Assembly: GCF_030503435.1 (NCBI RefSeq)
Contig: NZ_JAUKPO010000018.1
Location: 1 to 64,000, forward strand
Reading direction: 5' to 3'
Length of the DNA stretch: 64,000 bases
Source: Rhodocytophaga aerolata
GTDB lineage: Bacteria > Bacteroidota > Bacteroidia > Cytophagales > 172606-1
Positions 930 to 11,200 of this stretch are shown piece by piece (position 1 is the first letter of the stretch; each line of letters opens with the position of its first letter). Below the pieces are notes generated by a model, which ran no database searches, was not told the DNA's origin, and worked only from the letters and a program-made list of their open reading frames with translations. Position numbers and translations under genes: made by a program.

Positions 930-1028
930 ATTGCAATATACATTCTGCTAGATGATATTTTTGGACTTGCTACCTTTGACTGGAGGGAAAAAGATAGGCA
1001 GATTTAATAATGTATTAGATTTGACACT

Positions 1029-1328
1029 ATGAAAAGACAAGTATTTGATGAGGCATTTAAACAAATGGCTGTAGAGTTATCCTATGCAAAAGGATCAGTC
1101 AAACTAGCAGCAGCAGAATTAGGGATAGATCCAGGTAGATTAAGTAAGTGGAGACAAAATCAGCAGGATAGCCGTGTTGTTTCTAATGAAAAACCTGGGT
1201 TCACTGCAGAACAACTAGAAATCAAACGCTTACAAAAGGAGTTGAAGGAGGCTCAGTTAGAGCGCGACATTTTAAAAAAGGCGGTCAGCATCTTCTCCAG
1301 GAACGACGGGAAATATTCAGGTTTATAA
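1029..1328 (+). CDS. IS3-family transposase OrfA (helix-turn-helix)
   Basis: A 99-residue OrfA of the IS3 group, the DNA-binding part of the transposase. The N-terminal 50 residues carry the HTH_Tnp_1 type helix-turn-helix (KRQVFDEAFKQMAVEL... LGIDPGRLSKWRQ). Residues 60-90 form a leucine/charge-patterned coiled coil ending in ERDILKKAVSIFSR, typical of this protein. It is intact from ATG to TAA. A slippery heptamer at 1274-1280 lies in the coiled-coil codons, so ribosomes would normally shift -1 to make the OrfAB fusion. With orfB wrecked, only the OrfA product can be made, which in relatives acts as a regulator or inhibitor of transposition. Confidence 0.9.
   Translation: MKRQVFDEAFKQMAVELSYAKGSVKLAAAELGIDPGRLSKWRQNQQDSRVVSNEKPGFTAEQLEIKRLQKELKEAQLERDILKKAVSIFSRNDGKYSGL
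1274..1280 (+). promoter_or_regulatory. Programmed -1 frameshift heptamer A AAA AAG
   Basis: In the OrfA frame the codons read TTA AAA AAG, the canonical X XXY YYZ slippery site of IS3 elements. A -1 slip here enters the orfB frame, which is open through the end of orfA and on into the start of orfB (FINEHKDVFSVERM). This supports OrfAB being made by frameshifting in the ancestral copy. Confidence 0.8.
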
Positions 1329-1492
1329 ATGAGCATAAGGACGTATTTTCTGTTGAGAGGATGTGTAGAGTATTCAAAGTGAGTGTAAGCGGCTATTATT
1401 ACTGGCTCAAACACCCTGTTAGTTCCATATCTATCAAGGAAGAAAAATTATTAGTTGATATTTATAAGATATACGATAATAGCAAAAAACGC

Positions 1493-1522
1493 GGACCCGA
1501 TGCTCACGCTCGTGGCAGGTCC
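1493..1522. repeat. 30-base hairpin insert no. 1 in orfB
   Basis: The insert begins GGACC and ends GGTCC, exactly 30 bases. Inside it, a second helix of the CACG/CGTG type can form. It sits between codons for SKKR and the expected YGSPRI or HGSPRI motif, giving a net +29 frame disruption. Confidence 0.65.
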
Positions 1523-1736
1523 ATGGTAGTCCTAGAATTACAAGTGAACTAAGAGAACAGGGCATTCAAGTCTCACGTCCACGGGTGGCCAGACTGATGA
1601 AGAAAGCCAATATCAAAAGCATTATTAGAAAGAAATATCGAGTACAGACGACTGATTCTAACCATAAATATGCTGTAGCTGAAAATCATCTCAACAGAGA
1701 TTTCTCTGCACCAACGACAGGACAGAAATGGGTAAA

Positions 1737-1752
1737 GGATCATTCTCGATCC
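1737..1752. repeat. 16-base hairpin insert no. 2 in orfB
   Basis: GGATC, a six-base loop, then GATCC. It interrupts the family motif WV(x)DLTY just before the first catalytic Asp, giving a net shift of about +17 bases relative to a normal orfB. Confidence 0.6.
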
Positions 1753-1841
1753 GTGATCTGACTTATATCAGAACTGGAGAAGGATGGTTGTACATGACGG
1801 CTATATTAGACCTAGCTGACAGAAAAGTAGTAGGCTGGGCC

Positions 1842-1871
1842 GGACCTCAAATGAGATTTGATCTCAGGTCC
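1842..1871. repeat. 30-base hairpin insert no. 3 in orfB
   Basis: Again exactly 30 bases bounded by GGACCT and AGGTCC, with an internal GAGAT/ATCTC helix. The whole insert folds as an 11-bp stem with a five-base bulge and a TTG loop. It splits the family sequence VVGWA(L)SDTM, giving a net shift of about +28. Confidence 0.65.
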
Positions 1872-2282
1872 GAGTGATACTATGAAAGCTGCAGACACTA
1901 CGATAGCCGCTTGGAAAATGGCTATTAAAAACAGGCCTATAAAGCAGATTCTGTTGTTTCACTCTGACAGAGGTATACAATACGCCTGTACAGATTTTAG
2001 AGAACAGTTAAAAGGAATGCCCGTTTTGCAAAGCATGAGCAGGAAAGGGAACTGTTGGGACAATGCAATAGCTGAAAGCTTCTTCAAAACATTGAAAACA
2101 GAATTGGTTTATCATGTTAATTATGCTACAAAGCAGCAGGCGAAACTTTCTATTTTTGAATATATTGAAGGTTGGTATAATCGAAAGAGAAGACATTCTG
2201 CATTGGGTAACAGAAGTCCAGAACAATATCAATTCTATTTGGAAGAAAAAAGAATGGCTGCCTAAAAAAATCCTCCAGTAAA

Positions 2283-2483
2283 CTGTTGCAATTCCACAAT
2301 TCCTACGTAATCATTCACTAAACAGGCTTTGCCATAATCCGCTTCCTGAGCATCCATAAATCATCTGCCTCTTCCTCTTTCTTCATTAAATAGGAACTTC
2401 TTTTTAAAATGCCCCCTCCAGGATTCTATGATAATTTCCCCTAATAAAACAAATGGTCCACCAGCAGTTTCTATCCAATGCAA
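2283..2483 (-). pseudogene. Imm21-like immunity protein fragment, cut by the IS
   Basis: Reading leftward from a TTG at 2483, the frame encodes HWIETAGGPFVLLGE followed by ESWRG, then a TGA at 2361-2363, then DAQEADYGKACLVNDYVGIV, running straight into the right end of the IS. This matches from memory the layout of Imm21 immunity proteins (a W-(I/V)-E-x-x-GGP start, a WxG motif and a later DYxxAC-x-x-D-x-x-G motif). The C-terminal half, expected past the IS, was not recognised on the other side. It is likely a leftover of a polymorphic-toxin immunity locus. The in-frame stop and IS insertion make it non-functional. Confidence 0.65.
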
Positions 2484-8279: not shown

Positions 8280-11200
8280 TGAGCAAACGTAACACGCAAC
8301 GTATGAAATTTATTAAAATCTTTCAATTTGAATTCAGGTACCAGTTACGCCATATTTCTACTTGGCTGCTGTTCATTGTATTTCTGCTATTTGGTTTTAT
8401 GATCCTGAGAATGGTCACCCTTACCGATGATACCTACCTAAATGCACCTGGCACAATTGCCTTCTTTACTATTTTTGGCACCGTGATATGGATGGTGATT
8501 GGAGGAGTCGTTGCCGGTGAGGCAGCAACACGCGACCGGCAGACATTAATGCATCCGCTTACCTACACCACGCCGGTGAGCAAGGGCAGCTACCTTGGTG
8601 CACGGTTCCTTGCTGCATTAGCATTAAATGTATTGATTCTGCTTATCCTTTATACCGGCATGTTCTTCTCCTTTTATGGCCCTGGTGCCAAAACGCAGTT
8701 TATCGGGCCTTTCCGGCTGGCGTCTTATCTGACAAATTTCGCTTTCATTGCCTTGCCTACGGCCATTGTCACTACATCCATCCAGTATGCTTTTGCTGTA
8801 GTAAGCGGCAGGGCTATTGCCAGCTATTTTGGAACCCTTGTTATCCTTATACTTTCCCATCTCATCGGCACTACGGTCCGGTTCAAGCTTGAATGGGTGT
8901 TTTTCGGCAGTATGTTAGACCTCCTGGGTATTACGATCATCCAGGATATGGAGGGCTGGACACCCATCGATAAAAATACCCGGCTTATCACCTTAGAAGG
9001 CACATGGCTCTGGAGCCGCATCCTATGGTTTTGTATAGCTGCAGGTGCACTTATGTACACTTACTCCCGGTTTCAATTGAGTCATATTACGCCGAACGCT
9101 AAAGGATTGAGACTTTTTAAGCGTCGATTACGGATTCGTAGCAGCACTCAGGTGTCATCCAGTTCATTAACCTATACTCGCGAGGATGTAATTACTCCCG
9201 TCAATGTTCCGAACATCACTCGTAATTTTAGTTTCTCGACCTATCTGCTACAGGCACTTACCATCGCCGGGACATCATTCTGGACAATTGCCAGAAGCCC
9301 AGCTGGGCTTACGCTGGTTGCCGTGCTGGCCATTGGCACTGGGTTGTTTGCGACGGAGTATATGGAGTGGTTTGGCGTTCCACTATTTGCCCGGACTGAG
9401 GAGGTATTAAGAGTCTTAACGCCTCCTTTAAACAGCTACCAAACACACTGGATTATTATTCCTTTACTCACCATTTTCTATGCCGGTGAACTCCTCTGGC
9501 GTGAGCGCGAAGCAGGACTACATGAGCTTTCAGACACTGCTCCAGTGCCCGAATGGGTTATGTTGGTTGGCAAATTCCTAGGACTTTCCCTCATCATCGG
9601 TGCATGGGTAACCTTGTTAATGCTGGCTGGACTCATTAACCAGCTGGTCATGGATTATCATCATTTTGAGATGGATGTATACCTGAAAGCACTTTTTGGA
9701 ATTCAACTGACGAACTACCTCCTGTTTGCAATCCTTGTTTTCGTGATCCATGTACTGGTAAATCAAAAATATATCGGTCACATGATGGCATTAGGGGTGT
9801 ATGGTTTCATACTCTTTGCTTCGCTAATCGGAATTGAGCATAAGTTACTCATCTACGCTTCCGATCTGGGCTGGTCGTACAGTGACATGCGGGGTTTTGG
9901 GCCATTCATCAAACCGTGGCTATGGTTTAAACTCTATTGGGTAGCTTGGGCATTGCTTCTGGCGGTACTAGCAATGCTGTTCTGGATGCGAAGCAAAGAA
10001 ACTGGACTAAAGATGCGGTTTCACCTGGCACAAGGCCGGTTAGCTACGTATAAAATGACTCTGGTCATAGCCCTTTTTTTGGTCATTGCATCTGGTGCTT
10101 TCATTTTCTATAACACGAATGTGCTGAATGTGTATAACAATAAGGAAGATAGAATGGAGATGCGCGCGGAATACGAGCGACGGTACGGGCAGTATGAAAA
10201 CAAAATACAACCACTACTTGCGCGTACCAATCTGCATGTCGAGATTTACCCGGATGAGCAAGCGGCCGACATCCGGTGCACCTATCATCTGGTGAACCGA
10301 AGCAAAGTAGCCATCGACTCCATTCATCTTTCTACTACTCCCTACTCAGGGGTTACTGCTGTTTCTTTTAACCGGGAATTTATTCCTGTCGTTCTTGATA
10401 CTGAGCTGGGTTACCATATTTATTCCATTAAAAATGCGCTTCAGCCTGGCGATTCTGTGCAAATGAGCTTCGAAGTGCATATCAAACCAAATGGCTTCCA
10501 TAATAGTGGTGTAGATGCCTCCGTCGTCGCCAATGGTTCGCACATTGACAGTGATGACTGGATGCCTATAATTGGTTACCATCAGGACCGGCGCCTTCGC
10601 AATGCACGTGACCGTTCAACGTATAGGCTTGCTCCACGTCCGGAGAGACGATCTCTCGATGATAGTACGGCACGCTATGATACACGTCATATGAATAAGA
10701 TAGATTTTGAAGCAGTGGTTGGCACAAGCAGAGACCAGATAGCTGTGGCACCGGGGGGGCTGCACCGCACCTGGGCAAAGGGAAATCGCCAGTATTTCCA
10801 CTACGTTACCCAAACGCCGATACTTAATGAGTATGCTTTTTTTTCAGCAAGGTATGCAGTCCGTGAAGCACAGTGGGTGCCAGGTTCGCCAAAATCAGGA
10901 AATGGCTCAATAGACCCGGTTCAAGAACTGGAAAAGACAGCAAAACCTGTGACCATCCAGATTTTTTATCATCCAACACATGAGGCTAATATAGAGCGCA
11001 TGGTGAGAAGTATACAAGCATCGCTAGACTATTACTCTCAGGAGTTCGGGCCTTACCCGTACAGTCACTTTCGTGTGCTGGAGCGGCCAGGGCCAGGCCG
11101 GGGGATGCATGCTGAGGCTATGACAATTGATTACCCGGAAGGCTATTCGCTGATGAATCCGAAACCCGGCGGCCTCGACCTCCCCTACCACATTATGGCA

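Follow-up and report, generated by a model that had tools for sequence, protein, structure and literature searches.

The window, that is, the whole 64 kb stretch of Rhodocytophaga aerolata DNA that was analysed, carries near its start an insertion sequence (IS) whose rve and HTH_Tnp_1 domains provide the domain basis for its assignment to the IS3 type. The features of this locus are listed below, where net lengths are the surplus found by frame-aware protein alignment against insert-free copies.

About 962 to 2296, plus strand: IS3-type insertion sequence, its ends placed by eye from IS3-like terminal sequences.
1029 to 1328, plus strand: orfA (HTH_Tnp_1), without interruption.
1361 to 2265, plus strand: orfB, the transposase gene (integrase core), with an uncertain start codon and a frame broken at three inserts only.
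1493 to 1522, minus strand: insert 1, a class A micro-element of 30 nt in reverse orientation (forward reading GGACC-TGC-loop-GCA-bulge-GGTCC), at reference codon 112 between KR and YGSPR, with one T missing beside it, a net length of 29 nt, and a covariance-model match.
1737 to 1752, plus strand: insert 2, a 16-nt hairpin GGATC-N6-GATCC of the 16-18-nt class, near codon 184, net length 17 nt.
1842 to 1871, plus strand: insert 3, a class B micro-element of 30 nt (GGACC-x-y-x'-y'-GGTCC), at codon 213 between GWA and LS, net length 28 nt.

An earlier note on this DNA had placed three palindrome-bounded units in the orfB at these positions and had attributed every break of the frame to them, and both points are confirmed, orfB being otherwise open. 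It had also stated that deleting the units restores the frame. Deletion of exactly 30, 16, and 30 bases leaves the frame broken, whereas removal of the net 29, 17, and 28 nt opens a frame of 296 codons. The two 30-mers, described there as alike in length and ends with different interiors, are in fact representatives of distinct structural classes, namely class A (here reversed) and class B.

The units are regarded as insertions because they are absent from other copies of the IS in the same genome (G000). Copy C199 lacks all three, and copies C137 and C123 lack inserts 2 and 3, insert 1 being not comparable in either; the alignment of a fourth fragment (C183) gave nothing useful. Identical interruptions in all copies, which the earlier note had named as evidence against independent events, were not found: the same three do not occur in other copies of the IS, yet many of the sites recur in other copies or genomes. 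The copy on C137 (7086-9973; L032, L034, L054) is decaying, has another IS inside, and holds further hairpin-like inserts with other ends (CAAACT..AGTTTG and TTGATC..GATCAA), together with an insert of about 70 nt.

Taken by itself, the pattern GGACC-N10-40-GGTCC is not rare by chance in the window, with two matches found against 0.67 expected and 15 of 100 shuffles reaching two. As for folding, 10, 13, and 3 of 200 shuffles fold as well as inserts 1, 2, and 3, respectively (z -1.9 to -2.7). Decisive is the genome-wide recurrence of structured versions. The pattern has 35 matches in the genome as a whole, many of them structured relatives, and only the matches with inner structure, from these 35 and from the 60 of a second search, were taken further. 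The reversed control CCTGG-N10-40-CCAGG has 642 matches in the same genome, which means either that GGACC is avoided or that a CCTGG..CCAGG repeat is common.

The three inserts are members of a large family of mobile, structure-forming micro-elements of about 16-32 nt. The suggestion of a very small mobile palindromic repeat family, made in the earlier note, finds support in the exact 30-mer GGACCTGAAATAAGATTTCATCTTAGGTCC, which is present, in either orientation, in three IS contexts and two genomes: at codon 100 of IS1182, at codon 275 of IS3, and in IS3-like genes on C117/C167. Four classes can be distinguished:

Class A, 28-32 nt: GGACC-TGC-loop-GCA-bulge-GGTCC.
Class B, 30-32 nt: GGACC-x-y-x'-y'-GGTCC.
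Class C, 27 nt: hairpin with a two-base bulge.
Class D, 16-18 nt: hairpins.

A stem-loop census of 0.56 Mb of sequence adds an 18-nt class with the stem NNRAYC and a six-base loop, and the loop ATTCTC of insert 2 recurs elsewhere in TTGACC-ATTCTC-GGTCAA. In classes A and B, the bulge beside the outer stem is complementary to the hairpin loop. Loop and bulge covary in class A, as in the pairs CGA/TCG, CAGA/TCTG, and CAAA/TTTG, and none of 5000 re-pairings of 18 elements reached the observed pairing; in class B (10 elements), the x stem was reached by none of 5000 re-pairings and the y pairing by 5 of 5000. Since the overlapping pairs cannot all form simultaneously in a simple fold, these elements may be called "pseudoknot-like", a label that is not meant to claim a fold. 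Class A elements are present in both orientations, and insertions can be nested, as in copy L089 of genome G069, where one gene holds several units within one another.

Repeated 18-nt palindromes of the form NNGACC-N6-GGTCNN, and relatives of them, are also found on C115 of G000 (L047-L053), a mobile-looking contig of 136 kb, for example at 9877, 19134, 23694, 71355, and 71406. Several of them lie in frame within ORFs, two in an ORF of 2925 codons, giving motifs such as DQTRSN, and on this contig they seem to be translated. Similarly, a DDE transposase ORF of 421 codons in G069 (L219:250-1512) stays open through a class A element of 29 nt.

The sites of insertion have features in common. A pyrimidine precedes and a purine follows the element in 40 of 44 class A loci. 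The earlier note had proposed looking for target duplications; comparison with insert-free copies revealed none, and bases are missing instead, contrary to the target-site duplication of IS and MITEs. For the classes of about 30 nt, the sequence next to the element lacks one to three bases, usually T, that insert-free relatives have, for example a single T in IS256 (where the insert-free copy is 85% identical), in IS5, at codons 100 and 287 of IS1182, and at codons 112 and 275 of IS3. The 27-nt class leaves one or two extra bases instead. Expressed through the element length L, the net surplus varies by site and class among L-1, L-2, L-3, L+1, and L+2. At codons 100 and 287 of IS1182 the scar is constant (net equal to length minus 1), though the element length ranges from 28 to 62 nt. 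Exact excision with a constant scar was considered as a general rule and rejected: it fits only partly, at these two codons, at codons 112 and 275 of IS3, and in IS256 (one base missing), and it fails at codons 36 and 431 of IS1182, at codons 38, 135, and 213 of IS3, and for the 27-nt class. Because the net lengths vary, excision of a single fixed length would not suit every copy.

The distribution of class A was followed with a covariance model built from 9 sequences and run on 148 genomes of the order (8 of the family and 140 outside it), with at most 49 candidates scored per genome, so that the counts are lower bounds. At E<=0.5, the matches number at least 9 in G000, at least 47 in G004 (a complete genome of the same genus as the window), at least 14 in G055, and at least 34 in G069 (another genus of the same family); at E<=0.01, they number at least 9, 43, 11, and 22, respectively. 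Among the candidates scored in the other four genomes of the family (G024, G040, G082, and G096) there is no match, and outside the family the model gives four weak matches (E 0.17-0.48) in 3 of the 140 genomes. The element family is patchy at both the genus and the species level.

From the 85 class A matches at E<=0.01, 44 representatives were taken, and 33 of them fall within transposase genes that represent many IS types. The assignment is based on a transposase-type domain for 29 loci (Pfam, E<=0.05, in an ORF that overlaps the locus or lies at most 150 nt away, two of them only at 0.03-0.05) and on similarity to a named IS copy for four (L120, L215, L228, and L230); the Pfam input consisted of one to four ORFs near each locus, rather than all overlapping ORFs. 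By domain, the IS types are IS3, IS66, IS91, ISL3, IS256, IS630-like, IS5, and a DUF772 type that we take to be IS1182. The sole other domain near class A loci is a Sulfatase, in an ORF adjoining the IS5-like match on L228. The remaining 11 loci are without assignment: one each on L209, L218, L222, L224, L225, L212, L124, and L017, and one of the loci on each of L195, L203, and L215. None of the 44 was placed in a host gene or an intergenic region, and these 11 leave room for some. The end of the IS3 orfA is a hot spot of class A elements at an A-run in G000, G004, G055, and G069, for example at L205:1924, L209:1871, L223:2062, and, in reverse, on L105. IS3 elements usually shift frame at an A-run between orfA and orfB.

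The IS1182-type transposase is the case in which many copies can be compared. The window's own genome holds two intact, insert-free copies (C118a and C118b) and six interrupted ones; between them, the latter have 20 inserts (16-47 nt) but just three lesions of any other kind. Omega (NG86) among these eight copies is 0.05-0.18 over 28 pairs, at dS 0.5-2.3. Two copies of G069 (L087 and L089) share insert sites at codons 36, 100, 287, and 308/309, and these two insert-bearing copies give an omega of 0.06 at dS 3.3 over 216 codons. Other damage is present as well: a stop at codon 161 in L087, whose match ends after codon 324; two small frameshifts in L089 that lie outside its inserts; and, in a partial copy of G004 (L088), stops at codons 368 and 449.

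When the insert sites of G069 are compared with those of the first genus, 8 of 11 coincide within two codons, a result that random placement reached in none of 100,000 draws. The element type agrees at seven of the eight coincident sites (codons 100, 150, 235, 287, 309, 351, and 431/433), and at codons 245/247 there is no clear agreement between the genera. At codon 309, the two genera carry a nearly identical 21-mer; it has eight exact matches in three of the eight genomes of the family, always at codon 309 (five in G004, two in G069, and one in G000). Spread by gene conversion together with the flanks was considered and rejected: the mean excess identity is +0.06 and +0.04 at 3-10 codons from shared inserts, with none beyond, and control pairs without the insert give +0.03 and 0.00 by the same measure. 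The IS1182 pattern is what one would expect if the inserts were old and the genes had long worked despite them, the alternative being a recent wave of exactly site-specific insertion.

Insert-bearing copies of IS3, IS1182, IS256, and IS5 have multiplied recently in G004 and are mobile, with movement in cis as a candidate only. The IS3 group comprises eight copies that are 99.8-100% identical and carry two class A inserts apiece, besides an additional +1 shift near codon 211; among the 40 of 72 candidates scored, no insert-free near-identical copy was found in G004, the next full match being 68% identical. IS1182 is present as four full copies and one split by another IS, all with the same three inserts, and the full ones are without other lesion. 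The three IS256 copies carry one insert and a replaced conserved motif, and have an omega of 0.031 over 384 codons against the insert-free copy at 85%. In IS5, seven copies hold a 28-nt element that adjoins the conserved VERS/AWLN motif, the E of which is presumably catalytic. Here the reading frame runs on through the element without a stop, which leaves nothing that would have to be skipped. The two longer insert-free relatives in this case are damaged, one by an internal stop (L249) and the other by several lesions (L250).

Insert-free relatives with a long open frame are found in the same genome for IS1182 (70% identical), IS256 (85%), and IS3 (about 68%), and could supply transposase in trans. 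Because of the +1 shift in the former and the replaced motif in the latter, the IS3 eight-copy group and the IS256 group could be dead and moved in this way. The integrase-core genes of G004 form five near-identical or equal-scoring groups. Long open frames are present in four of them, with 2, 8, 5, and 7 copies; three of these four were checked at 99.9-100% identity, and the seven-copy group is equal in score only. The IS3 eight-copy group is the only known insert carrier. Two more equal-scoring integrase-core genes with class A elements beside them have only short identical pieces in common. In L105 near codon 211 and in L145 near codon 198, short stretches of conserved transposase motifs are replaced by sequence that itself looks like a tiny hairpin (GGC-TCTC-GCC and AGG-AAGCAG-CCT).

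From the low omega and the shared sites, we infer that the interrupted genes were long functional, and if they were, cells must as a rule disregard the element in making the transposase. The explanation that we narrowly favour over inactivation with mobilisation in trans, and that we hold at close to an even chance, is that the interrupted genes are expressed despite their inserts through shape-directed skipping, either at the ribosome or by removal from the mRNA. The RNA hairpin would be passed over in translation or cut out of the message, and its recognition would depend on shape and not on sequence, since it would have to be indifferent to element length (28 to 62 nt with a constant scar) and to orientation. 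The elements would spread along with their carrier IS and would now and then move into a fresh Y-T-R site of a different transposase. Bypassing of the byp type with matched codons, raised in the earlier note, receives no support: of 57 inserts, 33 have identical take-off and landing triplets when read in the true frame, and 37 and 35 do so in the two wrong frames, the test covering inserts of 13-70 nt that do not lie beside short aligned blocks. Counting against skipping are also the variable net lengths, the lesions outside the inserts, the candidate helpers, the integrase-core groups of G004 with long open frames, and an uneven presence of inserts among sister copies, for which losses or repeated gains would be required.

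That the elements are micro-transposons that inactivate the genes they enter is a serious possibility too, if somewhat short of even. They would have a strong site preference in transposase genes, or be carried between IS copies by recombination; the gene would usually be killed, and intact relatives would multiply the dead IS in trans. In that case, the low omega and the scarcity of other lesions would mean only that the kills are recent. Such an account agrees with most inserts breaking the frame or carrying a stop (of 57, 9 keep the frame and a single one of these is also stop-free), with the openness of the in-frame cases (IS5, the DDE ORF on L219, and the 18-mers in ORFs of C115), with the additional damage that the multi-copy groups of IS3 and IS256 and the IS1182 copies of G069 have suffered, and with the presence of intact candidate helpers in the same genome. 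It is harder to reconcile with exact sites, mostly of the same types, common to copies with saturated dS and to two genera, with no tract of raised identity extending beyond about 10 codons from shared inserts, and with the omega of 0.06 kept in the two long-diverged, insert-bearing copies of G069. Moreover, random insertion predicts many intergenic loci, whereas transposase genes hold 33 of the 44 class A loci and none was shown to be intergenic.

A reversible switch, in which precise excision and re-insertion toggle individual transposase genes, appears improbable. Fixed sites that are patchily occupied between sister copies, and empty sites that look precise, would suit it, but near-identical multi-copy groups all carry the same inserts, and the missing bases would need restoring. 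Products of replication slippage or template switching, also suggested in the earlier note, or chance palindromes in decaying pseudogenes are hardly credible, even though stems could be sharpened by palindromic repair and some copies (C137) are truly decaying, given the conserved sequences at unrelated sites, the covarying loop-bulge pairs of classes A and B, and the concentration in two genera among 148 genomes.

Several known systems share features with these elements. Byps, in the mitochondria of Magnusiomyces capitatus, have a hairpin structure and are mobile. According to a review (PMC5009743), they are short inserts that disrupt many still-functional coding genes, at 81 positions in 12 of 15 genes, with matched codons absent in several cases. 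An insert in an otherwise selected coding gene is likewise what is found in the IS1182-type copies. The present elements differ in being bacterial and mostly in transposases, in having bases missing at the site, and in that bypassing is only putative, with matched take-off and landing codons not above background. Byps are the closest known system in behaviour, and membership of the present elements among them is not claimed. The bypassing of T4 gene 60 also involves an mRNA hairpin within a coding sequence; as described in PMC5009743, it has one 50-nt gap, with GGA as the matched codon and a stop following take-off, an arrangement that was not found as a rule in the present elements.

REP sequences, associated with RAYT transposases, are multi-copy palindromes of 20-40 bp, some of them within genes, and PMC3733652 describes them as mainly extragenic and as having a GTAG or CGTC tag at one end. 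The elements described here are of the GGACC type and replace bases, inspection of their ends and 8-base flanks gave no consistent GTAG or CGTC tag, and their location, mostly in transposase genes (33 of 44 class A loci), does not follow the extragenic preference of REPs. The likeness to a further system lies in palindromes placed in coding genes, the present ones being 16-32 nt long and mostly frame-breaking. Rickettsia palindromic elements (RPE), by comparison, are palindromes of about 100-150 bp inserted in coding genes and kept in frame. Group I and II introns and IStrons are patchy at conserved sites and often found in mobile elements, and are hundreds of nucleotides long with catalytic cores; an Rfam search of positions 900-2400 of the window gave no match at E<=1. 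Among openly licensed PMC papers, no earlier description of such elements in transposases was found.

We tentatively propose, at rather less than even confidence, that two genera may possess a shape-directed system that ignores pseudoknot-like mRNA hairpins of 16-32 nt and that is exploited by tiny mobile intervening sequences in transposase genes. Such a system could work by ribosomal bypassing without codon matching, or by excision of the hairpin and re-joining. If the interrupted genes are expressed, the elements would be what byps are in mitochondria, now in bacteria, or else micro-introns of a new kind, and dozens of test constructs would already exist in nature. If the genes are not expressed, the elements would still stand out as mobile DNA of unusually small size that is concentrated in transposases and acts as a natural brake on insertion sequences.
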